Source of the DNA: a virus
Reading direction: 5' to 3' (one strand)
IMG/VR virus record: IMGVR_UViG_3300042895_002322
Location: 1-41,405 of that record
Length of the DNA: 41,405 bases
Of the stretch, positions 17,495-41,405 are shown in pieces; within the stretch, counting starts at the first letter, position 1, and every line of letters begins with the position of its first letter. Below the pieces are notes generated by a model. It saw only the letters and a list, made by a program, of their open reading frames with translations. It ran no database searches and was not told the DNA's origin. Made by a program: the position numbers and the translations under genes.

Positions 17495-20400
17495 TACATG
17501 ATAATATAAATGTTGATATTAAACTTAAGGGTCAATATAGATTCTCCGTAAAGGATAATGATACTATTGTATATACGTCACCTTGGTGTAATAATACTAT
17601 TTTATCGTGTGGTTTAGTAGATCTTCACTATTACGACATACCTAACATTATTAGTTATTTAGATATAGGGTCGAGTAGTAGTCTGCCCGGTGTATCAGGC
17701 TACGGACTTTCAGGTGTAATAGCTGAAACGGAATTTAAAAACATATATAGAGATATTGTCGAATCGTATCAAGATACGATTTCAAGTAAAGTCTATATTG
17801 CATCTTTTTCTTCTGGTAAAGCTCTAGATAATATTACGATAAATGAATTCGCTATTAAGCGGACTGAAATTAATAGTTTTGCTCGAAATACTCTCACTTC
17901 AACATATAGCTTATGCGCAGGTCAAATAATTAACTTTGAATATAAACTGACAGTTAACTGGTCATCTTATTTTACAGGTAATTTACCTGTAACAGGTAAT
18001 AGTTTAGGTTATATATATACAATACCTATTATATCTACAACATATAATATACCCTACGATAGTTTATATTATAATAATAATATGCTTTTTTTACTAGGCA
18101 ATATATATAATTCTGACGGAAGTTTTCTTAATCGTCTACCTAATATGGGTGATGACTATCCTGTGTTTTTTGATTGGGGTATTGATACATCAACATTTTC
18201 TACATATACACCAAATGAAGTAAGTAGTTCTATAGATAATATATTACGCAGATATACAGTGAATACTTGCTATAGTGGGATAGCTTGCGAACCTAATAGT
18301 GAAGTTCATAGTAATATAAAAACAGCCTTAATTGTAAAAGATGGAGATATAACACAACGAACCAATAAGTTTAACGCTACACGGTTTGTCTTTCCACTTA
18401 CTGTATATAATAGTATAGTTGTGTGTCCCTCCACGTTACCTAGCAACACTTCTCTTAATAATATAACACTCGGCTATAGCTATACATGGGGAGAGTGTGA
18501 TACAACATCGTCGGAGCCACCGCCTACTCTCACTATTAGTAGCGTAGATATAAGCAATACTGACGGTTACCCATCTGAAGATTGTTATGATCCTGCAACA
18601 GGTGAACCGTATGATACAAGAGTTATGTTCAGTGTAACAATGTCAGAAATAGGTTACCCTGGAGAATATGATTTAGTTGTTAGTGTAATGAGTAATTCTT
18701 CTAATTCTGAAGGAACAACTGTAATACAGCCTGGCGAAACTAAAGACTTTACATTGTATGTAAATTGTATACCTAATGAGGTAATCACTATTCAAGCTCA
18801 AGCTACACACAAAATAACTTCTAGTAAGGTAACTAATATTGCTATCGAAACAGCTTACGCACTTAACCTGTGTACTCCTACACCCACACCTACACCAACA
18901 ATAACTCCTACACCAACAGTAACTCCTACTAATACCCCTACTCCAACAGTAACACCAACAGTAACTCCTACTAATACAGTAACACCAACAATAACTCCTA
19001 CTAATACAACTACACCAACTGTAACGCCTACTAATACACCTACACCAACAGTAACGCCTACTAATACACCTACACCAACAGTAACGCCTACAGTAACTCC
19101 TACTAATACACCTACTAATACACCTACACCAACAGTAACGCCTACAGTAACTCCTACTAATACACCTACTAATACACCTACACCAACAGTAACACCTACA
19201 GTAACACCTACAGTAACGCCTACTATAACACCAACAATAACTCCTACTAATACACCTACACCAACAATAACACCAACAATAACACCAACAATAACTCCGA
19301 CTAATACACCTACTAATACAGTAACACCAACAATAACTCCTACTAATACTCCTACTAATACTCCTACTAATACTCCTACTAATACAGTAACACCTACAGT
19401 AACACCTACAGTAACACCTACAGTAACACCAACAATAACTCCTACTAATACACCTACTAATACACCTACACCAACAGTAACCCCTACAGTAACGCCTACA
19501 GTAACTCCTACTAATACTCCTACTAATACAGTAACACCAACAGTAACCCCTACAGTAACCCCTACAGTAACGCCTACAGTAACCCCTACTAATACTCCTA
19601 CACCTACAGTAACACCTACTATTACACTTACACCAACAGTAACGCCTACCCTCTTCCTATCACCGACACCTACCCCAACAATAACACCTACTATTACACT
19701 TACACCAACAGTAACACCTACTAATACACCTACAGTAACGCCTACAGTAACGCCTACAGTGACTCCTACTAATACTCCTACTAATACAGTAACACCTACA
19801 GTAACACCTACTGTAACACCAACAATAACTCCTACTAATACACCTACTAATACTCCTACACCTACAGTAACACCAACAATAACACCAACAATAACTCCTA
19901 CTAATACTCCTACTAATACTCCTACACCAACAATAACACCAACAATAACTCCTACTAATACTCCTACACCAACAATAACACCAACAATAACACCAACAAT
20001 AACTCCTACTAATACTCCTACTAATACTCCTACACCAACAATAACACCAACAATAACTCCTACTAATACTCCTACTAATACTCCTACTAATACTCCTACT
20101 AATACACCTACACCAACAATAACACCAACAATAACTCCTACTAATACTCCTACTAATACTCCTACTAATACACCTACACCAACAATAACACCAACAATAA
20201 CTCCTACTAATACTCCTACACCTACAGTAACACCTACTGTAACACCAACAGTAACACCTACTGGATTAGGTATCGAAACCATCTGCGTCGAGTACACTCA
20301 GGCAACGTATGACCCATATGTTACCACGGAGACGCAATTCAACATGTCTGGGAATGTTGTCATCGGATACACCGGCACAGGTCCTGGAGGCACGTTCACA

Positions 20401-21021
20401 CTCGACTATAACATCTATACATCATATTGGGAGCTGGACGATCCTAATTATGTATCCAGCTATTACTACAACGACGGCTCTTCACCTGATGGTTATTATA
20501 TTCCTGGCGCGTTTCCGCCTTACTACGCCACTGTCACCAGCGGCGCATGCCCAACACCAACACCTACACCAACAGTAACTCCTACACCGGTAACTCCTAC
20601 ACCAACACCAACATCAGTAACTCCTACACCAACACCAACAGTTGGCAGTCTCCCTGAAACAATCTATGTCAGACACTATCAATATCCTGATGGTCCGGAG
20701 ACAGACTTTACGATGACGTGGGTCGTCAACGGCCCGTTTGGTGGGATGATTGGCGCAGCTACGAACGATTATTACGAAGGTAGCTTCTTCAACGGCACTT
20801 ACGACGAGACATTCTGGCTGGCATGGTATCTTAACGCGACCTACGTGGAAACATATTATGATGAAGAATTAGGGGAATATGTGCATGTCTATACACCCGG
20901 ATGGCTTTTCTACTACGGTCCGGGTGTAGGTAGTGAAGATGCAACAAACCCAGCTGGAACGTATGATGATGTATATCAGCAGAATTATCGTATGATCGTC
21001 TCCCTCACTCCGTTTCCTTAA
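17491..21021 (+). CDS. Repeat-rich adhesin-like virion protein
   Basis: This 1176-residue protein is modular. Residues 1 to about 340 are a beta-rich virion domain beginning [17 protein letters not shown], then '[12 protein letters not shown]', a start common in phage structural proteins. Residues about 345-460 look Ig-like ([15 protein letters not shown] to ETAYALNLC). Residues about 462-924 are a (Thr-Pro-Thr-x) tract with x = Val, Ile, Asn or Pro. A domain of about 96 residues follows, then a second short Thr-Pro linker, then a final domain of about 127 residues. The two final domains look distantly related and are much richer in GC than the rest. The tract would act as an extended stalk carrying the binding domains outward. 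It is the last gene before a convergent junction. A fibre or head-decoration adhesin is the best guess. Confidence 0.7.
18874..20262 (+). repeat. Thr-Pro-Thr-x coding tandem repeat (12-nt unit)
   Basis: About 1.39 kb of near-perfect tandem repeat encodes 463 residues of [12 protein letters not shown] and TPTP units. The DNA unit is 12 nt, mainly cctactaatac- and ccaacagtaaca-like, with larger blocks duplicated several times. One interruption near 19651-19675 encodes LFLSPTPTP. Such tracts expand and contract by recombination or slippage. The minus-strand frame through it is an artefact of the repeat. Confidence 0.95.
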
Positions 21022-29945: not shown

Positions 29946-30605
29946 TCACAGTTTACCTTTCCACTTGTTTAGGAACCATTTTTGACCCTCATTAAACTCA
30001 GGAGTGAATTCCCTTAATCCTGGTGATGCATGAGTAATCATGATATCTGATACGCCGATTTTTAATTTTTCCTTATGGCAGCTCAAAGAAAAATCCAAAT
30101 CATAGTGGTGAAATCCGGCTGGGTTAGATTCATCAAATCTAACTTTCTCAAATACTTTACGACTCATTGCCATAAACACACCATCAATTAGAACAACCCG
30201 TTGAGGGTAAGGTCCAAAAGCAGTCATTGATTTTTGTTTTTCATTACCATGCGATACAGCGCCGTGAAGCTTTCCGCCACCAAATCCGCCACCCATTAAA
30301 TGCCATAATGCTGGTTCCTCTAGTTTACATTCTGTTGTACCCGCTACACCGATTAAATCAAACTGTTTAAACAGTGTAGGTAATTTATATGATAGGTCAG
30401 ATTCAATAATAATATCATCATGACAGAGTATTAAATATTCTGCCTTTTCCTGTATTGCGAAATCAATAGCCTTATTATAAATGACAGGTAGGGGTTGTGT
30501 ATTATTTTCCTTGAAGAAGAATTTCTTGCGCATAGAGCGATCACTATATAATAATGTATCTTTCTTTGATCCTTTTGTTGCTGTAAAATAAAATGTATTT
30601 TTCAT
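29946..30605 (-). CDS. Family 2-like glycosyltransferase (GT-A fold)
   Basis: The 219-residue protein has a nucleotide-sugar-binding half: PVIYNKAIDFAIQEKAEYLI, then LCHDDIIIESD with HDD as the DxD-type metal site (about 61-63). This is followed by VLIDGVFMAMSRKVFEKVRF and the acceptor-side FHHYDLDFSLSCHK, where the acidic DxD pair is typical of GT2 catalytic bases. It would transfer a sugar, but the substrate (DNA base, protein or envelope glycan) cannot be read. It overlaps the amidotransferase stop by 4 nt, so these two are co-translated. Confidence 0.75.
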   Translation of the reverse strand: MKNTFYFTATKGSKKDTLLYSDRSMRKKFFFKENNTQPLPVIYNKAIDFAIQEKAEYLILCHDDIIIESDLSYKLPTLFKQFDLIGVAGTTECKLEEPALWHLMGGGFGGGKLHGAVSHGNEKQKSMTAFGPYPQRVVLIDGVFMAMSRKVFEKVRFDESNPAGFHHYDLDFSLSCHKEKLKIGVSDIMITHASPGLREFTPEFNEGQKWFLNKWKGKL

Positions 30606-31267
30606 AAAAATAAAAACGGTGAGTTAGTTTCAAATGTATCAACGAGAGTCCATGTTTTAAAGTCTTTAAGCATCATGATAACACCTTCCGGTAATAACCT
30701 GAAACCTTCACCTCCAAGTGTAGATATATCACCATTATCATTATAGTGTAATACTGATCCCTGCCTTATAATATAAGTATCGTTCGAATCTGTATCAATT
30801 ATACATAGTGCAAACGTACCTCTAAGCTTACTCAGTACTTTTTTAATAATACCAGGTGCTGAACATTCACCATTACACTCTTCAGTAAAGAATTGTAAAA
30901 GATTAGGAATAACAGACGTATCCACTTCATTCACATCCCAAGGTGTATATTGGGCTTTTAGTTCTTTATGATTTGTTAATACACCGTTATGTACGACAGA
31001 CCATGATAACGATTCAAACGGGTGAGATGTATCGTATGACCAAGAACGAGCTGCAGATGTTGGAGCTTGTACATGGCCTATATAATAGTCACACCGCTCG
31101 TCTAATTCAATTTGGTTAAAATCGAGTGTACCTTGTTTTTTAATAATTTGCTGCTCATTACCATCATACAGACAGAGAACTCCACTAGCAAAATTACCAC
31201 GAGGTAGATTACCATCGTATAATACTTCAAATTTTGATACATTGTTAGATCCTACGATTGCGCAAAT
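30602..31267 (-). CDS. Class II (Ntn) glutamine amidotransferase, non-ATG start
   Basis: The frame continues far upstream of the first GTG (30934). It encodes an intact amidotransferase domain of 221 residues that would release ammonia from glutamine. It opens CAIVGSNNVSKFEVLYDG, with the catalytic N-terminal cysteine. GHVQAPTSAARSW follows, then SVVHNGVLTNHKEL (HNG oxyanion loop) and VDTSVI (glutamine-binding Asp). The canonical arginine of 'HTRWAT' is Gln here. There is no ATG, GTG or TTG before the cysteine after the in-frame TGA at 31271-31273. The only codons between are CTT and ATT, and ATT (31265-31267) would place Cys at position 2 as usual. AAAGGAG lies about 14 nt upstream. No synthetase domain is attached. 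Confidence 0.75.
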   Translation of the reverse strand: MCAIVGSNNVSKFEVLYDGNLPRGNFASGVLCLYDGNEQQIIKKQGTLDFNQIELDERCDYYIGHVQAPTSAARSWSYDTSHPFESLSWSVVHNGVLTNHKELKAQYTPWDVNEVDTSVIPNLLQFFTEECNGECSAPGIIKKVLSKLRGTFALCIIDTDSNDTYIIRQGSVLHYNDNGDISTLGGEGFRLLPEGVIMMLKDFKTWTLVDTFETNSPFLFL

Positions 31268-31301
31268 AAGTCAGCTTCTCACTCCTTTCATATATATTTT
31301 A

Positions 31302-31619
31302 TTATAAATAATCTCGTCTCTCCTTTGGCATTCTCCAGAAAAAATCGATTTGACCGGTTAAGTTATTTTTAGCTAATGCATAAGATGGATATTCAATACC
31401 ATCAGGCATCATATACCAGGATTTACGTTCTTTTTTGACTTTTTCAATACCTAAGTTTTTTAGTGTGTTAGATCCAAGACCTTTTATTTTAAAGAGGTCG
31501 TTGTTCGAACGAAAAGGTTGCATTGCTACAATACGTTCCGCTACTCGTTTACCTATTCCGGGTAGATTACATATACCCGTATAAGACATTTCGTTAAAAT
31601 CTTCCCAATTTAATTGCAT
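31302..31619 (-). CDS. Helix-hairpin-helix DNA-binding protein
   Basis: The 105-residue protein has a double HhH unit of ComEA type at about 14-60: YTGICNLPGIGKRVAERIVA followed by FRSNNDLFKIKGLGSNTLKN. The GIG and GLG hairpins are intact, so it should contact the DNA backbone without sequence specificity. The C-terminal 45 residues (KSWYMMPDGIEYPSYALAKN) are a separate, unrecognised aromatic-rich segment. It lies divergent from the late gene at 31639 and just upstream of the amidotransferase gene. A nucleic-acid-linked role in repair or DNA modification is plausible. Confidence 0.75.
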   Translation of the reverse strand: MQLNWEDFNEMSYTGICNLPGIGKRVAERIVAMQPFRSNNDLFKIKGLGSNTLKNLGIEKVKKERKSWYMMPDGIEYPSYALAKNNLTGQIDFFWRMPKERRDYL

Positions 31620-31623
31620 CTTC

Positions 31624-31631
31624 TATAAATA
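31624..31631 (+). promoter_or_regulatory. T4-like late promoter box (TATAAATA)
   Basis: An exact TATAAATA ends 7 nt before the ATG at 31639, in the 19-nt gap between two divergent genes. Confidence 0.7.
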
Positions 31632-31638
31632 AGTATAT

Positions 31639-32745
31639 ATGAGTTCTTTTACTAATCTACTCTCAAGATTATCTTTTATTAACGAAGCTGTTTCACCGCT
31701 CGATACACTTATTCCTGGCTTTCAAAAACAAGCAAGAGGATTAGCTGCAGCAAAGGGAGCATCTGCTAGCACACGTGAGGGAAAGTTAGCATTATTAACT
31801 ATTCTATACGATCTTGATATTATTGACGATTCCGTTGTAAGAATGTTTAAGAATGACCCATCTGTTAGTAGATTAGTTGCGTATTTTGAGCAAAATGGTA
31901 TTGCAAAGGCTATTAAAGCTCGTAAAGATGATATCCAGAATTATATTAAAGATAAGTTAGAAGATAAAATTAGCTTTACAACTGGTAACAGAACGGATGC
32001 TGCAATGCAACGTATGGAAGTTAATAAATTAAATACAGAACTTAAGGCTGCTAAGAAGGTAGCTCGTATCGAACGTAAAAAGGATACCGCCGCTGCAATG
32101 AGTGCTGTTAGTCAGGTAGTTGATAACTATGCTGATTTGGTTGGATCAATACAGGGGTCATATAGCGAGGACTATATGATCGAACTTGTTGCTGATAAAA
32201 GTAGTGATCTTGGCGATATTAACAATATTGTTAATTATCTCAAGCAGTTCGTTAAAGAGTCTGATATAGACGTGGAAGGAAGAAGTATAGATGCGACATT
32301 CTCAAAAGATTCTAAACTAGGTAAAATTATAACTCGTCTTGGTGCTGAAAAAGTAGAGTCACAGATTTCAGACGATCTAGAAAAATACGGTGGTGTTGGT
32401 GTTGTTATTCATACACCTGATATACAAGCTAAACCTAATATGAACGGTAATATAGGTCAAGAAGAAGAAGAGGGGTACGAAGAAGAAGCTGAAGATGAAG
32501 AAGGTTTTACTACTACAGTAGAAAGATTAGAAGAGTTTGGAATATCTACCCCGAGGTATACTAATGGCAAAATACCCGATATAAAAAATAGTAATACAGT
32601 GACGGAGGGATCAGTTCTTAACTATATGTCTGAACAAAGAGTTTACTCATCTCCAAAGCCGATCGTTGAATCAATAAGCTTTAGAGACAAGTTTAAACCA
32701 CAAACTTCTAAGCAGTTAGCTGAATTAAAAAGTTACGGAATGTAA
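31639..32745 (+). CDS. Late protein, possible prohead/core component
   Basis: The 368-residue protein begins MSSFTNLLSRLSFINEA. That is an amphipathic leader ending in I-N-E, which fits the (I/L)-x-E rule of T4 gp21 processing and resembles T4 capsid-targeting leaders. The middle is helical and basic (KLNTELKAAKKVARIERKK). Next comes a highly acidic stretch (GQEEEEGYEEEAEDEEGF, about 274-291) and a C-terminal region with SFRDKFKPQTSKQLAELKSY. Acidic, helical, late-expressed proteins of this kind often belong to the head core. Its 3' end overlaps the queC stop by 13 nt. Apart from the leader, the assignment is contextual. Confidence 0.6.
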   Translation: MSSFTNLLSRLSFINEAVSPLDTLIPGFQKQARGLAAAKGASASTREGKLALLTILYDLDIIDDSVVRMFKNDPSVSRLVAYFEQNGIAKAIKARKDDIQNYIKDKLEDKISFTTGNRTDAAMQRMEVNKLNTELKAAKKVARIERKKDTAAAMSAVSQVVDNYADLVGSIQGSYSEDYMIELVADKSSDLGDINNIVNYLKQFVKESDIDVEGRSIDATFSKDSKLGKIITRLGAEKVESQISDDLEKYGGVGVVIHTPDIQAKPNMNGNIGQEEEEGYEEEAEDEEGFTTTVERLEEFGISTPRYTNGKIPDIKNSNTVTEGSVLNYMSEQRVYSSPKPIVESISFRDKFKPQTSKQLAELKSYGM

Positions 32746-33482
32746 TTACATCCTTTGGCTTCGTAAATCCCGTCAAGCTTTTCCTGTTGCAGATACTTAA
32801 TGGGATCTCTGTAATTTGCTGAAATAAACCCAGCTAATCTTAAACTACTCGCTGGAGTTGTAGCATCTGCTAAACCATCTTCTCTATTACTATAACATGT
32901 CCATGTGTCTCCGAAGTTTACTCCTAATTCTACACCCTGCCTTACGATATCAGCCTTTGACAGGGAGAGCAATGGAGCTCCCACGCGGATTCTATGTTGT
33001 CTGTTAAGTGATATTAGTTCATTCATCTTGTCAACGAACGAAAAATCTCCGTCCCAGTAGCCGGCTAGAGAGTCAACTTGTGCGGCACCATACCACACTT
33101 CATCTGCTTTTAGACTCTCTGCATAAGCACAGCAGATCGTAACAAACATCTGATTTCTAAACGGTACATATGATACAGGTTGCGCATCACCTGCAATTTT
33201 ACTAATATCTGGGTTATCAATCCCTTCATTAGTAAGAGATGAGGTAGGTGAGATATCTTTTAAATATGTTACATCTAATGTCTTGTTTGTGACAGTAATA
33301 TTAGGATATTTTTCCTTTATAAGTTGATACTGAACCCCCATACACTCTAATTCCCTACTATGTCTCTGACCGTAATCAAATGTTACTGTATGAATTTCAC
33401 TATAACCTTGAGCTGCTGCCATGTATAGTAATACTGTACTATCCGCTCCTCCACTAAATGCTAAAACTAATTTTTTACTCAT
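32733..33482 (-). CDS. queC: QueC-like 7-cyano-7-deazaguanine synthase, zinc site altered
   Basis: The 249-residue protein is a PP-loop ATPase of the QueC family. It has KLVLAFSGGADSTVLLYMAA (ATP-binding SGGxDS), TFDYGQRHSREL, SYVPFRNQMFVTICCAYAES and VRQGVELGVNFGDTWTCYSN. Classical QueC turns carboxy-deazaguanine into preQ0 with ammonia and ATP. In bacterial QueC the C-terminal 'C..GG...CG.C.SC.LR..GF' ligates zinc. Here only the first cysteine (TWTC) remains. The other three positions read A-T-T-P-A-S-S before LRLAGF. The substrate or step may therefore differ. It lies about 1.5 kb from the class II amidotransferase on the same strand, which matters for the Gat-QueC idea. Confidence 0.85.
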   Translation of the reverse strand: MSKKLVLAFSGGADSTVLLYMAAAQGYSEIHTVTFDYGQRHSRELECMGVQYQLIKEKYPNITVTNKTLDVTYLKDISPTSSLTNEGIDNPDISKIAGDAQPVSYVPFRNQMFVTICCAYAESLKADEVWYGAAQVDSLAGYWDGDFSFVDKMNELISLNRQHRIRVGAPLLSLSKADIVRQGVELGVNFGDTWTCYSNREDGLADATTPASSLRLAGFISANYRDPIKYLQQEKLDGIYEAKGCNYIP

Positions 33483-33499
33483 GATTTTTTAAAAGTTGG

Positions 33500-33515
33500 T
33501 TATTATTAATAATAA
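33500..33515. promoter_or_regulatory. 16-bp perfect palindrome in divergent intergenic region
   Basis: TTATTATTAATAATAA is a perfect palindrome in the 56-bp space between the divergent queC and GIY-YIG genes. It is 17 nt from the queC start codon and 10 nt from the late box of the other gene. It may be an operator, but being pure A/T it could arise by chance. Confidence 0.3.
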
Positions 33516-33525
33516 AGTCGGTTAC

Positions 33526-33533
33526 TATAAATA
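33526..33533 (+). promoter_or_regulatory. T4-like late promoter box (TATAAATA)
   Basis: An exact TATAAATA ends 5 nt before the ATG of the GIY-YIG gene at 33539. T4 also drives its intron-borne GIY-YIG endonuclease I-TevI from a late promoter. Confidence 0.65.
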
Positions 33534-33538
33534 CTAGT

Positions 33539-34165
33539 ATGAATAAGTATTATGTTTATATGTATATTGATCCTGAAACTCGTAAACCGTTTTATATCGG
33601 TAAAGGTACAGCTTCTAGAGCTTGGGCGTTTACCGGTCACGATCATAATAAATGGCTAACTATAAAAATCAATACAATACGCGATAAAGGTTATAAAAGT
33701 AAGGATTTTGTTATTATTATGGATGATAATTTACTTGAATCAGAAGCTTTTGAACAAGAAAAATTACTTATCGAGCAGTATGGTAAGAAAATGGATGGTG
33801 GTATTTTGTTTAATATTAACGATGGGGGCGTACAGCCACCATCACAAAAAGGTAAGACGTGGAAGTTATCTGAGCAATCTATTATTAATATGAAAGCTAG
33901 TTGGACACCGGAACGTAGAGAGAAAAATAGTATTAAATTTAAAACAATTGAACGAACAGCAGATTGGTGTGCTAAAATATCTGCTGGTAAGCGAAAAGCA
34001 GTATTTGATCAAATAGTATTTGAGCAATATGTATTATCTAATTATAAATTAAAAGATATCATAGATATGATGAACATTACCTATGATATCTTTAGAGATC
34101 GCGCGCTTTTAACTTATAACACTGTTAAGTTTAGAGATATAAAGAAATTAATTAATATCCTCTAA
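33539..34165 (+). CDS. GIY-YIG homing endonuclease (free-standing)
   Basis: The 208-residue protein has the GIY-YIG nuclease core at residues about 3-90: YYVYMYIDPETRKPFYIGKG (the second element is FYIG), SRAW with the catalytic-type Arg, and EQEKLLIEQYGKK with the metal-binding Glu. A Gly-Asn-rich turn (FNINDGG) follows. Residues about 108-125 (GKTWKLSEQSIINMKASW) resemble the NUMOD3 DNA-binding repeat found beside GIY-YIG nucleases. It would cut a related site lacking this gene and copy itself by recombination. It sits alone, on the opposite strand to its neighbours, between queC and uvsX, with a late promoter. Its end overlaps the uvsX end by 18 nt. Confidence 0.85.
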   Translation: MNKYYVYMYIDPETRKPFYIGKGTASRAWAFTGHDHNKWLTIKINTIRDKGYKSKDFVIIMDDNLLESEAFEQEKLLIEQYGKKMDGGILFNINDGGVQPPSQKGKTWKLSEQSIINMKASWTPERREKNSIKFKTIERTADWCAKISAGKRKAVFDQIVFEQYVLSNYKLKDIIDMMNITYDIFRDRALLTYNTVKFRDIKKLINIL

Positions 34166-35245
34166 TACTTCATCAGGTACTGTTACTTCATCATTAGAGT
34201 AAGACCAGTTTTTCTTAATTTTTACTTCTAAGAGCGGTATAATAGTTTTTTCCCACAAATCAATGTCTTTTCTAAAATTACGATAATATCCAAGCTTAGT
34301 ACCATCTTCTAGTGTATATGTAGCTCCACTTTGAACAACAATACCATGTCCAACTGCGAGGTCGAGTAGACCGTAGTAGCGATCTAAACCTGTAGAGAAT
34401 GATAAGAACATTTCACCTTCAAGGTACTGTTTAATAAATCGATTCTTACGTGTAAGAGCTCTGATAATAATGCCTGAGTAATTCTTTTGACCAACAGCAA
34501 GTTTTGTATCCGTTGTTTTACCACCATCATCTTTAACGGGCTTACGAGCTAGCTGAACTGTAACAGATGGAAGATAAACGCATGCTTTACCTCCTGGCAT
34601 ATTTTTTTCAATTGATGGAAACATTGCTGTAGGATCATCATATACATGGTTTGTAAGTAAAATTGTTGTCTGTGTAATAGATCCAAGATTAGTACATGTT
34701 TGTAATAGGGTTTTCATTGCACGAGCTTTAGAGCCCATATCGGAGCTAGTACTTTCCTTACCCATACGAGAGTGTTCGAGTTCTGATTGAAGATTACCAA
34801 GTGAATCGATAGCTACAATAAATCTACCTTGAAGCTTTTTTTCTTGAACCGATGTTAAGAACTTATACAGTGCGTTTCGTGTTTGTTCAATACTAACACA
34901 CGGTACATATTTGACTTTAGATACATCTAACCCAATACGAGTAGCTCCTTCCGCGTCAATAGCATTTTCTGTATCGAAAATAACAGGAATAAGTCCTTCT
35001 TTTTGAGCATTAGCAAGAATCTTTTGTACAAACAATGACTTACCTGTCATAGACTCACCTGCAAGCATTACAACACGACCTTTAGGAATGCCGCCGTAAA
35101 CAGATCCCGAAATAATTGCGTTAAGCACATAACTTCCTGTATCAATCCAACTATCTACTCTACTCAGTGTGCTATCTGAGAGATAAGTAGCAAAGGGATT
35201 AACCTCATCAATACTATCTAAGGCACTTTTAACATCTTTATCCAT
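34148..35245 (-). CDS. uvsX: UvsX/RecA-like recombinase
   Basis: The 365-residue recombinase catalyses strand exchange for recombination-dependent replication and repair. The RecA core shows GSVYGGIPKGRVVMLAGE with Walker A GESMTGKS (63-70), VIFDTENAIDAEGATRIGLD, Walker B-like IVAIDSLGNLQSE, and ILLTNHVYDDPT. The C-terminus is acidic (DDEVTVPDEVLEDI-like), a common regulatory feature. T4 UvsX is 390 residues. A sigma70-type promoter directly upstream and an intrinsic terminator just before it separate this gene from the one upstream. The 3' end overlaps the GIY-YIG gene. Confidence 0.92.
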   Translation of the reverse strand: MDKDVKSALDSIDEVNPFATYLSDSTLSRVDSWIDTGSYVLNAIISGSVYGGIPKGRVVMLAGESMTGKSLFVQKILANAQKEGLIPVIFDTENAIDAEGATRIGLDVSKVKYVPCVSIEQTRNALYKFLTSVQEKKLQGRFIVAIDSLGNLQSELEHSRMGKESTSSDMGSKARAMKTLLQTCTNLGSITQTTILLTNHVYDDPTAMFPSIEKNMPGGKACVYLPSVTVQLARKPVKDDGGKTTDTKLAVGQKNYSGIIIRALTRKNRFIKQYLEGEMFLSFSTGLDRYYGLLDLAVGHGIVVQSGATYTLEDGTKLGYYRNFRKDIDLWEKTIIPLLEVKIKKNWSYSNDEVTVPDEVLEDIN

Positions 35246-35251
35246 ATAGAT

Positions 35252-35279
35252 ATTATAGATACAGCGCTCTATAAATCAA
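35252..35279 (-). promoter_or_regulatory. Sigma70-like early promoter for uvsX
   Basis: On the minus strand TTGATT (-35, 4 of 6 matches) and TATAAT (-10, exact) are 16 nt apart. The -10 ends 6 nt before the uvsX ATG, so transcription would start at or very near the start codon. It follows a terminator, which supports a separate transcript. Confidence 0.6.
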
Positions 35280-35282
35280 GAC

Positions 35283-35329
35283 AAAAAAATACCCCCGGAA
35301 TTACGCATGCAAGCAGAGGCGCCGGGGGT
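35283..35329 (-). terminator. Intrinsic terminator upstream of uvsX
   Basis: ACCCCCGG (35291-35298) pairs with CCGGGGGT (35322-35329) around a 23-nt loop. Read on the minus strand, the right arm is followed by TATTTTTTTG. It lies 18 nt after the stop of the gene at 35347-35694 and ends its transcript. On the plus strand only a short T-run follows. Confidence 0.85.
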
Positions 35330-35346
35330 TTGCTAAATTTATTTAA

Positions 35347-35694
35347 TCAGTCTTCAAATAATCTAATAACTTCTGCATCACCTTGAGCGGGTTGCTGTGG
35401 AGCAGGAGTATTAATACCGTTATACTGTAGAATAATCTTACTATCAAGTTCTACAGAAGATTGTACGATACTAGCTCTATTAAATGTCCAATGATTGGAT
35501 GTACGTGAACCAGGTGCGAGGAATTCCATAAAGATATAGGGAATAGATTGAACTTGAAGTTGGCCTGTTTGTGGATTCGGTTGAACGTGAATAATGACAG
35601 GATTATCTAGAGTTAACGTTGTAGCAGTCTGTTCAACTTCTACTCCAATAACTGTACGGCCGATATGATCAATAATTGTTGTAATCTTACTCAT
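35347..35694 (-). CDS. Small beta-rich protein, possible Sm-like fold
   Basis: The 115-residue protein begins MSKITTIIDHIGRTVIGVEV. Beta strands follow (TTLTLDNPVIIHVQPN; QVQSIPYIFMEFL; SSVELDSKIILQYNG). The order of a short helix followed by a 'GR.V.G.....T...L.NP' strand pattern resembles small Sm/Hfq-like folds, but no RNA-binding signature is visible. It has a Pro/Gln-rich tail (TPAPQQPAQGDAEV) and an acidic end. Its own downstream terminator suggests it and the preceding gene form a short transcript. No name can be given. Confidence 0.55.
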   Translation of the reverse strand: MSKITTIIDHIGRTVIGVEVEQTATTLTLDNPVIIHVQPNPQTGQLQVQSIPYIFMEFLAPGSRTSNHWTFNRASIVQSSVELDSKIILQYNGINTPAPQQPAQGDAEVIRLFED

Positions 35695-35718
35695 GATATT
35701 TATTGTATATTGAGAATA

Positions 35719-35961
35719 TTACTTTTCAACTTTTTTGTTAGTATTAATAAGTGATTTGTTTACTTCTTCTCTCCATGCTAGTAATCCGCGACGCATACTC
35801 TCTACGTCAGGTTGATTATTAACACCTGAACCATCATCATGTCCCATCATAATATCCGATACAATGCGTAGTATTGCTTCAATACCTCTTGCTTTACCAC
35901 GCCAAAAAGCAGGGTGTGAGCGTCTTGTATCGTCAAGTTCAGGTTGGTCTAAGTATTCCAT
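35719..35961 (-). CDS. Hypothetical protein, 80 residues
   Basis: The protein begins MEYLDQPELDDTRRSHPAFW and has two helices (GKARGIEAILRIVSDIMMG; VESMRRGLLAWREEVNKSL) around a Gly-Asp turn, ending in a Lys-rich tail (NTNKKVEK). It is helical and basic at the end. A possible sigma70-type promoter lies just upstream, with the -10 six nt before the ATG. It sits between polymerase and the Sm-like gene. The function is unknown. Confidence 0.55.
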   Translation of the reverse strand: MEYLDQPELDDTRRSHPAFWRGKARGIEAILRIVSDIMMGHDDGSGVNNQPDVESMRRGLLAWREEVNKSLINTNKKVEK

Positions 35962-35967
35962 ATTAAT

Positions 35968-35997
35968 AGTATATAGTTGTTAATTTTTATTTTGCAA
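35968..35997 (-). promoter_or_regulatory. Possible sigma70-like promoter after polB
   Basis: On the minus strand TTGCAA and TATACT lie 18 nt apart, and the -10 ends 6 nt before the ATG at 35961. This is weaker than the uvsX promoter, but the -10-to-ATG distance is the same. Confidence 0.35.
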
Positions 35998-36002
35998 CTA
36001 GA

Positions 36003-39000
36003 TTAGAATCCAAATAAATCATCAAGTTCTGTTTGCACATTATCAGTTGGCTTTCTAATACGCCAATTTACAGAGTCATAAAAACGTTCAATCGAATTAA
36101 ACAAGATCTTTTCAAACATCAGTACATAGTCGATTTTAAATAGATTTCTAAACTCAGCATTATAATCATACTTGAAGCCGATAGTTGTAATACCATATTT
36201 GTTTTGCTTTTCTACATATAGATATCTAATTTTATCACCAGAGGTAATAGTTTCACTTTTACCGTCAATCTTTGACATAATTAAATTATGGTAGTATGCT
36301 GACTTAACGTGAATAGGCATACCTTTAGCTACTAAAAACTCTTTACACTGTGATGCATATTTTTCATAACCTTTTACACCCATAACAAACGCAATTTCTT
36401 CCGGTGAGAGACTCTTAAACACATCAAACGTTTCATTAAGTAGTTTATTAGTCTGATTTTGAGATTGTGTTAACAACATTGTCTCGATAATCTTCTTAGC
36501 GTATGGTTTAATAGCATTAGGCATCGTAGTACGTACAACTTCCACACCTACATACTTAAACTTATCAACCTTTAGACCTTCATCATCAAGAATATGCATT
36601 ACATAACGCTTTTTCTGCAAAAATACCGCAACATCTGCAATACACTCACGTTTAAACACGAATCTACTATCTTTCGTGAGCAAATTCTTTTTAGCCCATA
36701 AAGTAATACCTATATTAAGATAATCTTCAAGATCATTTACGGTTTTATAAAATTTTTCCGATATAACCTCACCATCCTTAAGAGGAACCTTGTCCTTTAT
36801 GCATCCTAATGAAAAGTAGCACGAGTCTGTATCAGAGTATACCCAACTCTCATTAAGAGTATGTGAATCCGTCACATTAAAGTTAGTAGTAAGATAGTTT
36901 TGTAGTAGTTTACCGGCTTGTTTGATAACAGCTTGACCAGTTAGCGTTACAGACGATGCAATATCATCATCGCCAATAGGAGCTTGCTTATTACCCATAT
37001 ATCCATAACAACTATTAACAAGAATCTTAATAACCATTTGTTTAGTATTAAGTCTTTCTACTTCAAACTGTATCTTTTCATAGTCAGCGTCAGACTTGTT
37101 AAGTGTTTGTAGCTTTTTACGAACTTTAAATAGTTCTTCCTTAATAATAACACGTTCTTTGTAATAGTGATCGAGGAATTCAGGAATAATACCCTGCTTC
37201 TTTTGTGTAAATAGGAAGCCTGCTTTAGTTATAGCTAATTCTTCTTGCTTAATAAAGGAACTAAACTTTTCTTTAGTTAAATTAAACGATTTACCTGATA
37301 TATGATGTACAATAAAGTTATTATCATCAGTCTTCTCTATCTTACCCACCTTTGTTTCAGGAGATAAATTAAGTGCAATCATAACATTCGGATATAGTGA
37401 GTTAGCATCGAAAGATACAACGTTTTCTTTAAAGCCATGCTTAGGTTCAGCTACATAGGCGCCAGGATTTTTACCTTCTGCTTGAGGTCTTACAAAAGTT
37501 GAAATAACTTCCTTACGCTTACGCGCTTTAATAGTAAGCGCACCATTAATGACAGAAATAGTACCCATAGCACCTTCAAGAGTAGTTAAACCTACATAAG
37601 AAAGCATACGTAAAAGCGAAACATACTGTAACTTTTCTTCAAGTTTAACAAGTAGATTAACATCTTGAATGTTATATTTAACAAATGTATCCCAATCCGT
37701 TTCAGATAAAGTAGCGAGGTTAATATCACCATAATCTACCTTACGTTCATTAAGTTCCACCTCACCGATTGCATCTAGTTTATAAGATTCTCTTAGTCTT
37801 AAGCAAAATCGCTTGTAAATATCAAGATAGTCAATGCAGGCTACACCACTAATATAGTAACGCTTGACTTCTCTACCAAACTTACCTCTCATAGTACGGT
37901 CATATACTTGACCTACAGGTGAAAGTCGATTTACATACTCTTGACCAAGTAACCTTTCTATACGGTTAATAATATAAGGAATATCAAACCCCTCACAATT
38001 GTGTGTATGTATACCGTTACATAAGAATGTATGTGTTTCTGTTGTTATATCGTACATTTGCACCTCTCTACCTGTCTTGGTAATAGGTAATATCCTAACT
38101 ACATATTCATCAGCACCACCATACATCCATTGTATTTTATTAGACGCAGTATTTTTAATAGTTCGATATTTTAAATTGCTTAGTTTGGTTTTTCTATGTG
38201 TATGTCTGATATATAAATTTTCTAAAAATTTCTGATTTATATTATTACTATTTACAGTAATATAATTCTTATGCAAACGCGATTGAACACCATTCCATAG
38301 TAGTAATTCTTGAAGGTCATTTAAAAATTTATATTTAGTGCAGTCGTAATTACATAAAGAAATACCATTCTGCTCAATCCAGCCATCACCGTCGATCATA
38401 CCACTAAAAAATGCCTTGAATTGAGAATAAGATAATCTAGATAGTAGTTCTACATCTGGTTGCTTAGAGTCACTTTTGTTATAAATTAAATTGTGCAATA
38501 CACGAGCTTTATTATTATTACATATCTGCTTGGTATATGAAATAAACTCTCTATTATTAAACCTGGTTATACACTCAGTAAATGGTTTTAGATTTTTGTT
38601 ATGCTCTTTTGCAAACGCTGCTGTATAACTTGCGATTAAATCGCTATATTTACTTGTCAACCTATAACACTGCTTACTCTTATCATATGTACCATCTGTA
38701 AATATAAATCCCATTAGTTGTAGTATCTCTAAAGATATACTCTCCTTTTTTCTTATAATAAAATTATCACAAACACGTCGCGTTGTAGTAAAGTTAAAAA
38801 TATAACTATCCTGATCCTCATCAACTATGACGTCTCTAAGTGCTGGCACGCTTTCTACAAATTCTTGATAGTTTAAGTCACTATTATTATTAATACCTAG
38901 ATGTTTGACAGCATAGAAATCATAAACAACTTGATCACGCTCAATATCTGCTACACTTAATTCTACAATATTTTTAGTTAAGGTTTTAAAATTTTTATAA

Positions 39001-39791
39001 TCTGTCTTTTTTCTTCTATAAACCATAAATCTATGATCTTTAGAGCACAGAACACTACTACCATGCTCCGTCTTAATCTCGTACTCAGACTTTATACCTG
39101 TATTCATAAAGTTATTTATACAAATACCATGTCTTTTAAGAGGCTTATTCTCGAAGTTATTCGATAAATCCTTAATTTTAACTATACGATCCCGTAACCA
39201 TACATGTTGATTTTCTTCTATACAGTTCCAACCACTAAGAATATCAGGGTAGTCGGATTCTATATACTCGATAAATTTAATAAACAGAGACCGCTCATTT
39301 TTGCAGTGATAGTATACTACATTATCAGCAGTATTTGTATATGGAGCTAACCCAAAAGTATTAAACTTCTTTGTAGTTGTATCATAGCATGTAATAACAT
39401 TTACAGGGTGAGTAGGGTCTTCTGTATTCGGAAAGCTGCTAGGTGAAAAAGTTTCGATGTCAAAAAATACAACCTTTAGTGGGTGCTGAGTAAACTCAGG
39501 CGTTTCATTCTCACGCCAAAACGTCTCTAGCAAGTATTGCTGAACTGTTGGAATATTCTCAAACAACCTACGATTACCGGAATCAGCAATGTACTTAGTT
39601 CGATCGTATTGTGTATTAAATGAGCGCTTTTTAACCTTTGTACCGTAAATAGATACCTTATCTCCGTCAGGTGATTCGAGATACAAATAAGGATTAAACG
39701 TTACATCACGAGTGACACGTCTACCTTCATCATCCCAGGTAAAAAGCTTGATTGATTGATTTCGACTATTATATACTGCGTTTCGATACAT
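36003..39791 (-). CDS. DNA polymerase family B, gp43-like, interrupted by an intein
   Basis: The 1262-residue precursor gives an 853-residue polymerase after intein removal (T4 gp43: 898). Proofreading motifs are VVFFDIETFSP (ExoI, about 107), SGWN joined to CEGFDIPYIINRI (ExoII, split by the intein) and YNIQDVNLLVKLEEKL (ExoIII). Polymerase motifs are VVSFDANSLYPNVMIALNLS (motif A), KQMVIKILVNSCYGYMGNKQ (motif B) and YSDTDSCYFS (motif C). The C-terminus ends in TELDDLFGF, which fits a clamp-binding peptide. It replicates the phage genome with the clamp. A strong hairpin abuts the start codon. Confidence 0.93.
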   Translation of the reverse strand: MYRNAVYNSRNQSIKLFTWDDEGRRVTRDVTFNPYLYLESPDGDKVSIYGTKVKKRSFNTQYDRTKYIADSGNRRLFENIPTVQQYLLETFWRENETPEFTQHPLKVVFFDIETFSPSSFPNTEDPTHPVNVITCYDTTTKKFNTFGLAPYTNTADNVVYYHCKNERSLFIKFIEYIESDYPDILSGWNCIEENQHVWLRDRIVKIKDLSNNFENKPLKRHGICINNFMNTGIKSEYEIKTEHGSSVLCSKDHRFMVYRRKKTDYKNFKTLTKNIVELSVADIERDQVVYDFYAVKHLGINNNSDLNYQEFVESVPALRDVIVDEDQDSYIFNFTTTRRVCDNFIIRKKESISLEILQLMGFIFTDGTYDKSKQCYRLTSKYSDLIASYTAAFAKEHNKNLKPFTECITRFNNREFISYTKQICNNNKARVLHNLIYNKSDSKQPDVELLSRLSYSQFKAFFSGMIDGDGWIEQNGISLCNYDCTKYKFLNDLQELLLWNGVQSRLHKNYITVNSNNINQKFLENLYIRHTHRKTKLSNLKYRTIKNTASNKIQWMYGGADEYVVRILPITKTGREVQMYDITTETHTFLCNGIHTHNCEGFDIPYIINRIERLLGQEYVNRLSPVGQVYDRTMRGKFGREVKRYYISGVACIDYLDIYKRFCLRLRESYKLDAIGEVELNERKVDYGDINLATLSETDWDTFVKYNIQDVNLLVKLEEKLQYVSLLRMLSYVGLTTLEGAMGTISVINGALTIKARKRKEVISTFVRPQAEGKNPGAYVAEPKHGFKENVVSFDANSLYPNVMIALNLSPETKVGKIEKTDDNNFIVHHISGKSFNLTKEKFSSFIKQEELAITKAGFLFTQKKQGIIPEFLDHYYKERVIIKEELFKVRKKLQTLNKSDADYEKIQFEVERLNTKQMVIKILVNSCYGYMGNKQAPIGDDDIASSVTLTGQAVIKQAGKLLQNYLTTNFNVTDSHTLNESWVYSDTDSCYFSLGCIKDKVPLKDGEVISEKFYKTVNDLEDYLNIGITLWAKKNLLTKDSRFVFKRECIADVAVFLQKKRYVMHILDDEGLKVDKFKYVGVEVVRTTMPNAIKPYAKKIIETMLLTQSQNQTNKLLNETFDVFKSLSPEEIAFVMGVKGYEKYASQCKEFLVAKGMPIHVKSAYYHNLIMSKIDGKSETITSGDKIRYLYVEKQNKYGITTIGFKYDYNAEFRNLFKIDYVLMFEKILFNSIERFYDSVNWRIRKPTDNVQTELDDLFGF
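37998..39224 (-). mobile_element. LAGLIDADG intein in the polB ExoII motif
   Basis: Residues 190-598 (409 residues) of the polymerase precursor form an intein between SGWN and CEGFD. It starts with Cys190 and ends HTHN598, followed by Cys599 as the +1 nucleophile. Block B is CSKDHRFMV (His253), and block F is QMYDITTETHTFL. The homing endonuclease has LQLMGFIFTDGTYD (about 357-370) and FFSGMIDGDGWIE (about 461-473), both LAGLIDADG helices with their catalytic aspartates. It therefore looks active for splicing and for cutting empty sites. Confidence 0.92.
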
Positions 39792-39821
39792 TCTCTACTA
39801 TAGTATAAATTATAGTAGAGA
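39792..39821 (-). promoter_or_regulatory. Hairpin directly before the polB start codon, candidate translational operator
   Basis: On the mRNA strand TCTCTACTATA and TATAGTAGAGA form a perfect 11-bp stem with an 8-nt loop (AUUUAUAC). The last base of the stem touches the AUG. No T-run follows, so it is not a terminator. In T4, gp43 binds a hairpin with an 8-nt loop that overlaps its own ribosome-binding site and represses translation. This structure is in the same place. Confidence 0.7.
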
Positions 39822-39832
39822 GTTATCAACGT

Positions 39833-41044
39833 TTATGGGTTCCAACGCTTAAGATATTTTCGTTCTGTTGATCCGTATGGCGTATTAAGTACCTCAAGAT
39901 GACATCCAATATTTTCATCTAATTCAAGAAAGCGTTGTGATCCTATATGTCTAAAGATTTCAACATTTCTATAATATGCAGCTTTATTTTTTAAAAGAGC
40001 TTCAAGCTTTTGTTCAAGTTCAGGTCCTGTTTTAAATTTAAGATCGGATGGCGCATCTTTATATGTTTCCATATCTTGTACAAGACAAGGAAGACCTAAT
40101 ACACACGCTTCGATAAATTTAATATCGGATTTTGAATTATTAAATGAATTATCTTGAAGCGGTGCAATCATTACTTGTGCACCAAGGTTTGCAATAAAAG
40201 CTGGATATTTATTAAGAGATTGCCAAGGATGAAATTCAATTTTACCGCTTTGGACGTGAGGAGTTAAAGCTGGTGGAAAGGCGCCAACAAATACCCATTG
40301 ATATTTGTCAATGGTGTTACGTACAACATCAAGAACATGCGAAAAATCATCTATACCACCATTTTTGTTATCGACATCATAATGTGCTCCTGATCCAGTA
40401 TATAATACTCTGGGCTTCTTTTTATTTTTATCGTAGTTGTTCCAAATTTGTTGTTTGTTGTAATAATGACCCATCCAGTGGTAAGGTACAAAGTTAGGTA
40501 TAACAGTAATTTCCTTTTTACCTGTACGTTCTTGATAAAGCTTGCGCATATAGTCACAGGTGACGGTGACTTCATCACACATATTAATAATATCTATACA
40601 GTTATTACGAATTTCATCGTTATCAAATGCAAATTTAAATTTATTATAATCAGGAATATCCTCTCTAAATACAACATCGTCAACCTCATAAACTATTTTA
40701 AATCCATGATCTTGTTGCACAGTCTTAAGATACTTGATAAATTCTTTTTGATCATTTGATGCTTGTCGTTGTACTTTAACGCACTTAACACCAGTATACC
40801 AGCGTGGATCAAAAATCATTGCTGTTTGTGATTGCGAACAGCCATAGCCCTCCGAATTAATAAGTAATTCAGGCCAGAGTATTCTCCAAAATCCACAGCC
40901 TGAATAATCCGCTAGATAATTAACATATCTCGGAAGAGACAACTCCCTTGGTTGCTCTGCACTTGGTCGAGTATGTACTATATTATTAATGAATGGTTCT
41001 ACTACAGCATTAACAAAAGGGCTGACGAATGGTTGTACGTGCAT
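39833..41044 (-). CDS. Family 4-like glycosyltransferase (GT-B fold)
   Basis: The 403-residue protein has the GT-B layout. Within the N-terminal domain are KIVYEVDDVVFREDIP and CDEVTVTCDYMRKLY, then EITVIPNFVP at the inter-domain boundary. The C-terminal domain has KPRVLYTGSGAHYDV, WVFVGAFPP and PLQDNSFNNSKSDIKFIEA, which carries the conserved E of the 'E..A.G.P' motif (ACVLGLPCLV). Sugar donor and acceptor are unknown; DNA bases, tail proteins or host glycans are all possible. It lies upstream of polB in the replication block, with a palindrome over its start. Confidence 0.8.
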   Translation of the reverse strand: MHVQPFVSPFVNAVVEPFINNIVHTRPSAEQPRELSLPRYVNYLADYSGCGFWRILWPELLINSEGYGCSQSQTAMIFDPRWYTGVKCVKVQRQASNDQKEFIKYLKTVQQDHGFKIVYEVDDVVFREDIPDYNKFKFAFDNDEIRNNCIDIINMCDEVTVTCDYMRKLYQERTGKKEITVIPNFVPYHWMGHYYNKQQIWNNYDKNKKKPRVLYTGSGAHYDVDNKNGGIDDFSHVLDVVRNTIDKYQWVFVGAFPPALTPHVQSGKIEFHPWQSLNKYPAFIANLGAQVMIAPLQDNSFNNSKSDIKFIEACVLGLPCLVQDMETYKDAPSDLKFKTGPELEQKLEALLKNKAAYYRNVEIFRHIGSQRFLELDENIGCHLEVLNTPYGSTERKYLKRWNP

Positions 41045-41060
41045 GTAAACATATTTACAT
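41043..41060 (-). promoter_or_regulatory. Inverted repeat over the glycosyltransferase start
   Basis: ATGTAAA and TTTACAT (7 bp, 4-nt loop) span the ATG of the glycosyltransferase gene and the gap up to the gp46 stop. Within it, TGTAAATA ends 7 nt before the ATG, the same variant box seen before 28558. It may be an RNA hairpin that controls translation, or a promoter box. Confidence 0.4.
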
Positions 41061-41405
41061 TAGTATTCAGAATATTCCACACGTCTTGTTATGCCTTCTC
41101 GCTTTTCTAGAAAAATAATATCACCTGTAACAGCTTTTAGGGTTTCATGGCGATGGCTTATAATAATAACACATTCATCTAATGAATCTACTCGTTCGCG
41201 AAGTATTTCTGTAATGAGCTCTATACCTTTATCGTCAAACGAGCTATCAAAAAGCTCATCATATATCACGGTGTTATAGCTTACACCGCCCTGTAACCTT
41301 CTAATATCTGAAAACGCAAATAAACATGCAAGATCAATAGATTTGCGCTCTGCACCTGAAAAATTAAAGTACGAACATATCTTATTCTTATCATTTACAA
41401 TTTCT
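41060..41405 (-). CDS. Recombination endonuclease subunit gp46-like (5' part outside window)
   Basis: The frame is open to the window end, so the GTG at 41269 is not the true start. The visible C-terminal part is an SbcC/Rad50-type ABC ATPase. It has CSYFNFSGAERKSIDLACLF (signature, FSGAE in place of LSGGE), then TVIYDELFDSSFD (Walker B and D-loop) and CVIIISHRHE (H-loop). gp46 works with gp47 to resect DNA ends for recombination-dependent replication, in line with UvsX here. At least 114 residues are visible; the true protein is several hundred longer. Confidence 0.85.
   Translation of the reverse strand, partial: EIVNDKNKICSYFNFSGAERKSIDLACLFAFSDIRRLQGGVSYNTVIYDELFDSSFDDKGIELITEILRERVDSLDECVIIISHRHETLKAVTGDIIFLEKREGITRRVEYSEY

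Follow-up and report, generated by a model that had tools for sequence, protein, structure and literature searches.

Organization of the Gat and queC genes

We describe a pair of genes in a 41,405-base virus record, IMGVR_UViG_3300042895_002322 (33.6% G+C), the whole of which we call the window: one encodes a QueC-family protein and the other a stand-alone class II glutamine amidotransferase (Gat). Both lie on the minus strand, 1.46 kb apart with two other genes between them, and they are not fused. The source phage is uncultured and T4-like: Pfam and related family scans, which covered ten window proteins, identified T4-type replication genes, such as that of a DnaB-like helicase, and a relative, contig G002, encodes a Gp23-type capsid protein. 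The original prediction had proposed that the two proteins form a split Gat-QueC system for an archaeosine-type DNA base. Both genes are real, as judged by matches to PF06508 and to GATase_6 and GATase_7, and their features are as follows.

32733–33482, minus strand: QueC-family protein, 249 aa (PF06508, E 3.1e-49; PDB 2pg3 and 3bl5 by sequence)
32832–32897, minus strand: remnant of the QueC zinc loop, retaining the first Cys, with the other three replaced (CYSNREDGLADATTPASSLRLA; from alignments)
33048–33059, minus strand: QueC motif YWDG, replacing canonical YPDC (from alignments)
30602–31267, minus strand: Gat, 221 aa, catalytic Cys at residue 2 (GATase_6, E 4.2e-10; GATase_7, E 2.2e-07)
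31058–31075, minus strand: HVQAPT motif of Gat, with Q at the place of R in E. coli GlmS and PurF (from alignments)
31265–31267, minus strand: putative start codon of Gat (ATT), adjoining the TGC that encodes the catalytic Cys (in-frame TGA upstream; no ATG, GTG or TTG)

The window QueC matches PF06508 at 167.8 bits (cut-off 22) and narrowly misses the equivalog cut-off of TIGR00364 (144.1 vs 150.3). Its predicted fold, from a model with a predicted local distance difference test score (pLDDT) of 63, best matches 3bl5 (E 1e-09). The PP-loop SGGADS, YGQRHSRE, VPFRN and the CY of the zinc loop are retained, while the protein reads CYSNREDGLADATTPASSLR where canonical QueC has the zinc site C(x)8CxxCxxC. 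As originally predicted, zinc ligands are lost: three of the four Cys are gone, and the loss is fixed, only the first Cys being left in 11 of 11 aligned clade members. Four QueC residues were found to be essential in PMC13329287, namely the Y of YxQxHxxE, the R of VPxRN, the Y of YPDC and the Y of the zinc loop; the window protein retains all four, though its YPDC reads YWDG. Pairwise ratios of nonsynonymous to synonymous substitution relative to the window were 0.10–0.16 for queC (8/8 pairs) and 0.065–0.148 for Gat (6/8 pairs, the other two being saturated), and by this measure both genes look to be under purifying selection. At two viral loci (L016:2810-2893 and L010:6292-6384), a second short match to the last 28–31 QueC residues lies downstream of the full QueC and resembles a duplicated C-terminal piece.

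The GATase_6 match of Gat exceeds the family cut-off, and Cys2, HNG and D116 are invariant in an alignment of 12 clade members. Its best NCBIfam and PDB matches are to GlmS. In GlmS and PurF, an arginine holds the glutamine carboxylate; the window protein and its aligned stand-alone relatives have Q in place of this R.

No ATG, GTG or TTG precedes the catalytic TGC in the Gat frame, which is why the open reading frame (ORF) listing shows only 30602–30934, and the first base of an in-frame TGA lies 6 nt before the ATT. A survey of the codon before TGC, in which 31 rows were collapsed by hand to 21 relative contigs, found ATT in eight contigs (three sequence lineages) and ATG in 13; an isolated assembly error therefore does not account for the ATT. 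The L011/L036 lineage, one of the three with ATT, has a stop-free upstream frame that contains a GTG, so that a GTG start is possible there. Gat thus apparently starts at ATT, a reading of the sequence that we prefer to a frameshift or readthrough of the upstream TGA because the Cys then remains residue 2. In L011 and L017, a short hydrophobic ORF ending in AAGGAGTGA or GAGGAGTGA is found just 5' of Gat (compare window 31262–31300), placed as if coupled to its translation.

Recurrence of the pair in viral genomes

Relatives of Gat were collected by an IMG/VR search with an alignment of eight sequences, from which the best 80 of 135 loci were kept, each with up to 4 kb of sequence per side. Many of these are near copies of one another, and the 80 loci are thus not independent. 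QueC was found within the fetched stretch, always on the same strand, in 69/80 loci, and YWD replaces YPD in all 68 readable Gat-linked QueC proteins, the 69th being truncated. The proposal of a split pair is thereby borne out as far as the pairing goes. Among the 11 loci without QueC, seven have at most 2.6 kb of upstream sequence and L177 has 3.5 kb; L188 has full flanks and no QueC. The remaining two, L208 and L209, encode a phage class II amidotransferase of a different type, which reads HNRLAT, and lack QueC inside 4 kb. An apparent match in Campylobacter phage A11a was discarded, since its open frame of 652 aa is no stand-alone Gat. A single 8-residue pattern, run against a bacterial and archaeal genome collection, gave 20 matches, none of which was confirmed as a relative.

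By our own grouping, the paired loci fall into (i) a window-like group of 30, in which QueC lies 1.0–2.7 kb away and the zinc motif is present in 0/30, and (ii) a KVP40/pf16-like group of 39, in which at most 1.2 kb, and in most cases a few bases, separate Gat from QueC and the four Cys are kept in 39/39 (38 by pattern, and L197, which has a longer loop, by reading). In four named phages Gat comes right after QueC, overlapping it by one base in KVP40 and nt-1 and separated from it by 11 bp in pf16 and 32 bp in Vibrio phage 2.275; the QueC of these phages has YWDC or YWDT, and further pathway genes are close to the pair.

For comparison we took the best 80 of at least 577 confirmed QueC loci, drawn with a YPDC-type alignment, a mixed QueC alignment being unusable for drawing an unbiased control set. 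One of the two search patterns was [YF]PDCR, so the absence of YWD from this set is in part a product of how it was drawn; that the set lacks this Gat (0/80 loci) is not built in by the PDC pattern. The zinc motif is missing from 26/80 of these Gat-free loci. Together with the four Cys kept in the KVP40-type pairs and in 4/4 fused Gat-QueC proteins of the phage 9g type, this count does not bear out the suggestion that zinc loss signals a changed QueC step. Zinc loss was also rejected as a mark of a Gat partner: the motif is missing from the QueC of Flavobacterium phage immuto, a phage in which no Gat was found. The zinc-less QueC proteins of Gat-free phages (among L230–L309) are of at least two sequence types, TDYNG...NPAS.LRAKGY and SHTSYDG..PP...HATLLRAKGF.

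With a profile of the clade Gat, the four named stand-alone phage Gats score 36–49 bits, GlmS 21, PurF 24 and the fused phage Gat-QueC proteins 4–30.

The rest of the pathway

Searches of the window found no match to FolE, QueD or a DpdA2 of the nt-1 type, in agreement with the original prediction, which had suggested that the missing genes could lie elsewhere. A radical SAM search missed QueE-like genes that PHROGs caught in the relatives G001 and G002, and it says little on QueE in the window. Beyond the window, two contigs with the same IMG/VR sample number were informative. Contig G013 (3300044530_001172) aligns to window positions 30085–41405, with 99.1–99.4% identity in the first and last blocks, and extends 6.2 kb past the right end of the window. 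The first 107 bases of G013 are exactly the last 107 of the 59.5-kb contig G024 (3300044530_001484), in the same orientation, and the overlapping ends adjoin on the syntenic relative G002. Families on G024 were assigned via G002 proteins, which are 69–99% identical to those of G024:

G024:7639-8079: phosphoribosyltransferase, XGPRT-like (by homology to the G002 protein)
G024:14900-15742: DpdA-like protein
G024:15739-16296: formyltransferase
G024:16290-16883: kinase
G024:16890-17840: QueF
G024:49876-50661: QueE
G024:51439-52080: QueD
G024:52989-53657: FolE (family also shown on G024 itself)

NrdB and NrdA are encoded on G024 as well. The search for the missing genes was thus successful for FolE, QueD and QueE, while for DpdA it yielded a DpdA-like candidate only. 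FolE and QueD were present in 5/12 of the records first searched, all five among the six longest. A radical SAM protein resembling QueE is found as phrog_2076 in G001 and G002, with homologues in G003, G004 and G006. The G002 QueF has two domains (QueF_N, E 2.2e-33; QueF, E 4.8e-21). Two-domain QueF nitrile reductases are marked by ESKSxK and a catalytic Cys; the G024 protein reads ESKSHKLY and SNCRVTSQPDWGD, and by these motifs it looks like a nitrile reductase. QueF lies near the DpdA-like gene in G002, G022, G023, G024 and G025. Taken with the contig overlap, these genes make a 7-deazaguanine DNA-modification pathway in the phage well supported, and with it the shared pathway that had been suggested from the window alone.

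Three further observations concern the same genes. The QueD of G024, that of G002 (G002:70912-71580) and those of G001, G003, G004 and G006 (5/5 relatives and G024) read HGY where QueD usually has HGH, so that one metal ligand may be changed. In the window's phage, immuto and Firehammervirus CP220, the DpdA-like gene is followed by that of a small nucleotide kinase (the G024 gene listed above; G002:31231-31824, phrog_2107; L112:6819-7361), for which a DNA-level exchange gives no evident reason. The phosphoribosyltransferase gene, present in 2/12 of the records first searched and in G022, G024 and G026, lies near ribonucleotide reductase genes (in G024 and at G002:22762-23235) or near QueE (G006:33797-34231). 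As a milder guess, its product could salvage guanine freed by base exchange; incorporation at the nucleotide level was considered and is unnecessary, since a DpdA-like gene is present.

The DpdA-like protein

The DpdA-like candidate was recognized on inspection of an ORF that lies two genes away from QueF. The G002 protein is 95% identical to the G024 copy and 47% identical to an immuto protein annotated as DpdA. It matches 26 phage records (15 Campylobacter, five Cellulophaga, four Flavobacterium, one Chryseobacterium and one Weizmannia), most of the Campylobacter records at 44–46% identity; one such homologue, CP220 gp056 (L112:6001-6777, annotated as hypothetical), is 46% identical. All five phages fetched (immuto, CP220, phiST, Youna2 and MA9V-3) carry preQ0 genes beside the homologue or elsewhere in the phage: in phiST, Youna2 and MA9V-3 it is near FolE, and QueD and QueE are also there in phiST and Youna2. 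Among its conserved motifs are LDN, HxLG and S-x-D, which are similar to the DSG and SxD patches in DpdA1 and DpdA2. We take the protein to be probably of the DpdA3 subfamily, an assignment that serves as a lead; Cui and colleagues reportedly found in 2023 that this subfamily allows complete guanine replacement, and predicted a dPreQ1 formyltransferase.

By sequence or profile, the protein had no significant match in the PDB. Known types of transglycosylase were likewise not detected: TGT (PF01702) was found in 0/21 contigs and the nt-1 DpdA2 in 0/12 records, and home-made DpdA1 and DpdA2 profiles run over nine contigs gave no candidate, the best hit (E 0.0078, a 98-aa ORF) being taken as chance. 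As the DpdA1 and DpdA2 profiles barely see each other, such misses are no evidence that DpdA is absent.

Comparison with known phages

In KVP40 (KVP40.0125), nt-1 (VPFG_00173) and pf16 (gp77), a class II Gat with HVQAPT stands beside a YWD-type QueC, as in the window. FolE, QueD and DpdA2 are close to the pair in KVP40 and nt-1, and pf16 has a DpdA2-like gene. These phages differ from the window in that the two genes are adjacent, QueC has the four zinc Cys, and DpdA2 takes the place of the DpdA-like family; identity to the window is about 25% for Gat and 32–35% for the QueC of KVP40 and nt-1. We used the KVP40 pathway gene names of PMC8056088, the available text of which lists KVP40.0120, folE, 0124, 0284, 0122 and 0123, with 0125 not among them; PMC6884629, for its part, credits nt-1 with ArcS. 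According to that paper, nt-1 DNA has dPreQ0 as its main base, at 0.11% of G, with less 7-amido-7-deazaguanine (dADG) and archaeosine (dG+).

The 9g-type Gat-QueC proteins of JenP2, PaMx25 and PSTCR4 likewise combine both domains with a phage 7-deazaguanine pathway; they differ in being one fused protein, as Gat-QueC also is in many Crenarchaeota, and the product in 9g is dG+. Their motifs differ as well: the fused Gats read N-x-RAEPT in 4/4 cases, against H-x-QAPT here, and the fused QueC has YPDN in 3/4 and YWD in 0/4. When combined with DpdA, the 9g Gat-QueC gives rise to dG+ in E. coli plasmid DNA, even in a host lacking queC, and it did not restore queuosine in a queC mutant (Hutinet et al., PMC6884629).

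Immuto has genes for the protein annotated as DpdA (DNA guanine transglycosylase), a formyltransferase, a thymidylate-kinase-like protein and QueF in the order seen in G024 and G002, apart from one small ORF after the first, and it resembles the window's phage further in encoding FolE, QueD, QueE and a phosphoribosyltransferase, as well as in its zinc-less QueC. It differs in that its QueC has YPDC and that a family A DNA polymerase lies beside the cassette, in addition to the lack of a detected Gat. In CP220, the DpdA-like homologue is followed by the kinase, as in the window's phage; CP220 differs in that no Gat or phosphoribosyltransferase was found and in that its QueC has FPDC and the zinc motif.

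Proposed role of the pair and alternatives

From gene content, conservation, pairing and contig linkage, all read from sequence, we infer the physical partnership, the amide donor, each chemical step and the end product in the following scheme. The pair probably constitutes, as two subunits or as partners, a glutamine-dependent preQ0 synthase feeding a preQ1-type DNA modification. FolE, QueD and QueE of the phage would make 7-carboxy-7-deazaguanine, Gat would release ammonia from an amide donor, and QueC, with ATP and this ammonia, would convert 7-carboxy-7-deazaguanine to the amide and then to preQ0. QueF would reduce preQ0 to preQ1, which a DpdA-type transglycosylase would swap for guanine in the phage DNA, and the formyltransferase may formylate the inserted preQ1. 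The end product would be dPreQ1 or formyl-dPreQ1, hiding the DNA from restriction; we propose such a product because QueF and a formyltransferase are present, in the order seen in immuto.

Archaeosine had been put forward as the likely base, and it would follow if the pair were a split archaeosine synthase, in which QueC makes preQ0 and Gat and QueC then aminate the nitrile to give dG+ as in 9g. The fusion of the two domains in JenP2, PaMx25 and PSTCR4, the dG+ formed in plasmid DNA by the 9g protein with DpdA, and the little dG+ in nt-1, a phage with a stand-alone Gat (PMC6884629), all speak for such an enzyme. It is nonetheless unlikely in the window's phage, where the substrates of the two-domain QueF and of the formyltransferase, whose gene adjoins that of the DpdA-like protein, would be preQ0 and preQ1 and not G+, and where the Gat and QueC motifs differ from those of the fused proteins as described above. 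Further, as the 9g Gat-QueC left queuosine unrestored in the queC mutant (PMC6884629), QueF need not be supplied by a Gat-QueC whose product is G+; a phage keeping QueF is expected to need free preQ0, and this is the main, indirect argument against archaeosine.

Campylobacter phages have been reported to carry dADG in place of G, and the similarity of the DpdA-like protein to proteins of most of the matched Campylobacter records (44–46% identity), together with the altered YPDC and zinc loop of QueC, could mean that the pair stops at the amide and that dADG is the inserted base, with QueF having another role or using host preQ0. Some dADG is also present in nt-1 DNA. A proposal cited in PMC6884629 has Campylobacter phages modifying through dGTP instead. 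We hold this outcome to be quite improbable: QueF near the DpdA-like gene in the five contigs named above would need preQ0, and the CP220 QueC has FPDC and the zinc motif, with no such Gat found in CP220, indicating that the Campylobacter case is not the same enzyme. There is a similarly small chance that Gat makes amino sugars with the glycosyltransferase encoded by the gene whose ATG overlaps its stop (30602–30605), while QueC works alone with free ammonia. The GlmS matches of Gat would fit such a role, yet a protein of 221 aa is too short to hold a sugar isomerase domain and matched none, and GlmS reaches 21 bits with the clade profile, against 36–49 for the four named stand-alone Gats. Moreover, Gat directly follows QueC in KVP40 and nt-1, with no glycosyltransferase annotated in the stretch fetched, and it adjoins QueC in most KVP40-like viral loci. 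Lastly, QueC-fold proteins have been repurposed in defence (PMC13329287), and zinc loss marks divergence, so that QueC might, like Cap9 or QatC, act outside DNA modification, for instance in protein deazaguanylation. This we consider very unlikely, as QatC lacks YxQxHxxE and VPxRN according to the same source, whereas the window QueC retains both; no CD-NTase or Qat partner family was found among the ten window proteins scanned (PADLOC was not run), and FolE, QueD, QueE, QueF and a DpdA-like gene are present in the phage.

Several points weigh against a preQ0 synthase feeding preQ1 into DNA. That Gat binds or feeds QueC is itself something we infer, and in the window clade two genes intervene between QueC and Gat, and Gat overlaps the glycosyltransferase gene. 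With Q in place of R, the amide donor is uncertain, and because the fused proteins score no better as a group than PurF or GlmS, a specific kinship between stand-alone and fused Gats is not supported. Immuto has the same cassette and no Gat was found in it, so that Gat is not needed for that pathway in general, and nt-1, a phage with such a pair and with mass spectrometry of its DNA, has dPreQ0 as its main base (PMC6884629). As the window is a record separate from G013 and G024, the pathway link is to a near-identical phage. Finally, the DpdA assignment is that of a candidate, resting on context, the annotation of one relative and short motifs. With hhalign, the DpdA-like protein aligned to DpdA2 at E 0.00039 over 47 columns (probability 35.5%) and DpdA1 gave no support; a DpdA1-DpdA2 control likewise fails. 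Its model has a pLDDT of 45 and no Foldseek match at E <= 0.001, and against it the DpdA chain 7ui4 gave Z 5.9 and a root-mean-square deviation of 4.8 over 183 residues, tied with unrelated barrels.

Beyond the preQ0 synthase reading, we offer a bolder possibility that is itself rather unlikely: the H-x-QAPT Gat and YWD QueC may be a virus-specific two-subunit enzyme, distinct from QueC and Gat-QueC, whose amide donor is possibly not free glutamine. In the window's T4-like clade, this enzyme would operate without the zinc site and feed large-scale replacement of guanine by formylated preQ1, with the displaced guanine recycled by the phage XGPRT-like phosphoribosyltransferase and the kinase.

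Neighbouring genes

The genes around the pair are as follows.

31302–31619, minus strand: helix-hairpin-helix protein, encoded in the interval between the pair and immediately 5' of Gat (HHH_3, E 1.1e-08)
31639–32745, plus strand: gene between the pair, with no family match above threshold; it shares 13 bp with queC where the two 3' ends overlap
29946–30605, minus strand: glycosyltransferase-like gene overlapping Gat as above (Glyco_tranf_2_5, E 1.2e-12)

The two intervening genes are thus where they had been described, though the label "late gene" given to the plus-strand gene was not substantiated. Homologues of the helix-hairpin-helix protein occur in 7/8 long relatives. Elsewhere in the window, the DNA polymerase B gene (36003–39791) encodes 1262 aa with an apparent intein ending in HTHNC, compared with 855 aa in G001 and G002, and a large protein with a long PT-rich low-complexity repeat is encoded at 17491–21021.

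Significance

The split Gat is already in the public KVP40 records, where KVP40.0125 is noted as a PF00310 match. A pairing of QueC with a stand-alone phage Gat was met neither in literature searches nor in the available portions of PMC6884629, PMC8056088 and PMC13329287, and the accounts of KVP40 (PMC8056088) and nt-1 (PMC6884629) in those portions do not mention the Gat gene. The two-gene signature of an H-x-QAPT Gat and a YWD QueC identifies a form of the preQ0 step that recurs in phages, and the window clade offers natural zinc-less QueC proteins for enzymology. Gat may also explain the mixture of dPreQ0, dADG and dG+ in nt-1, and a preQ1-type modified genome is predicted in a group of uncultured T4-like phages.

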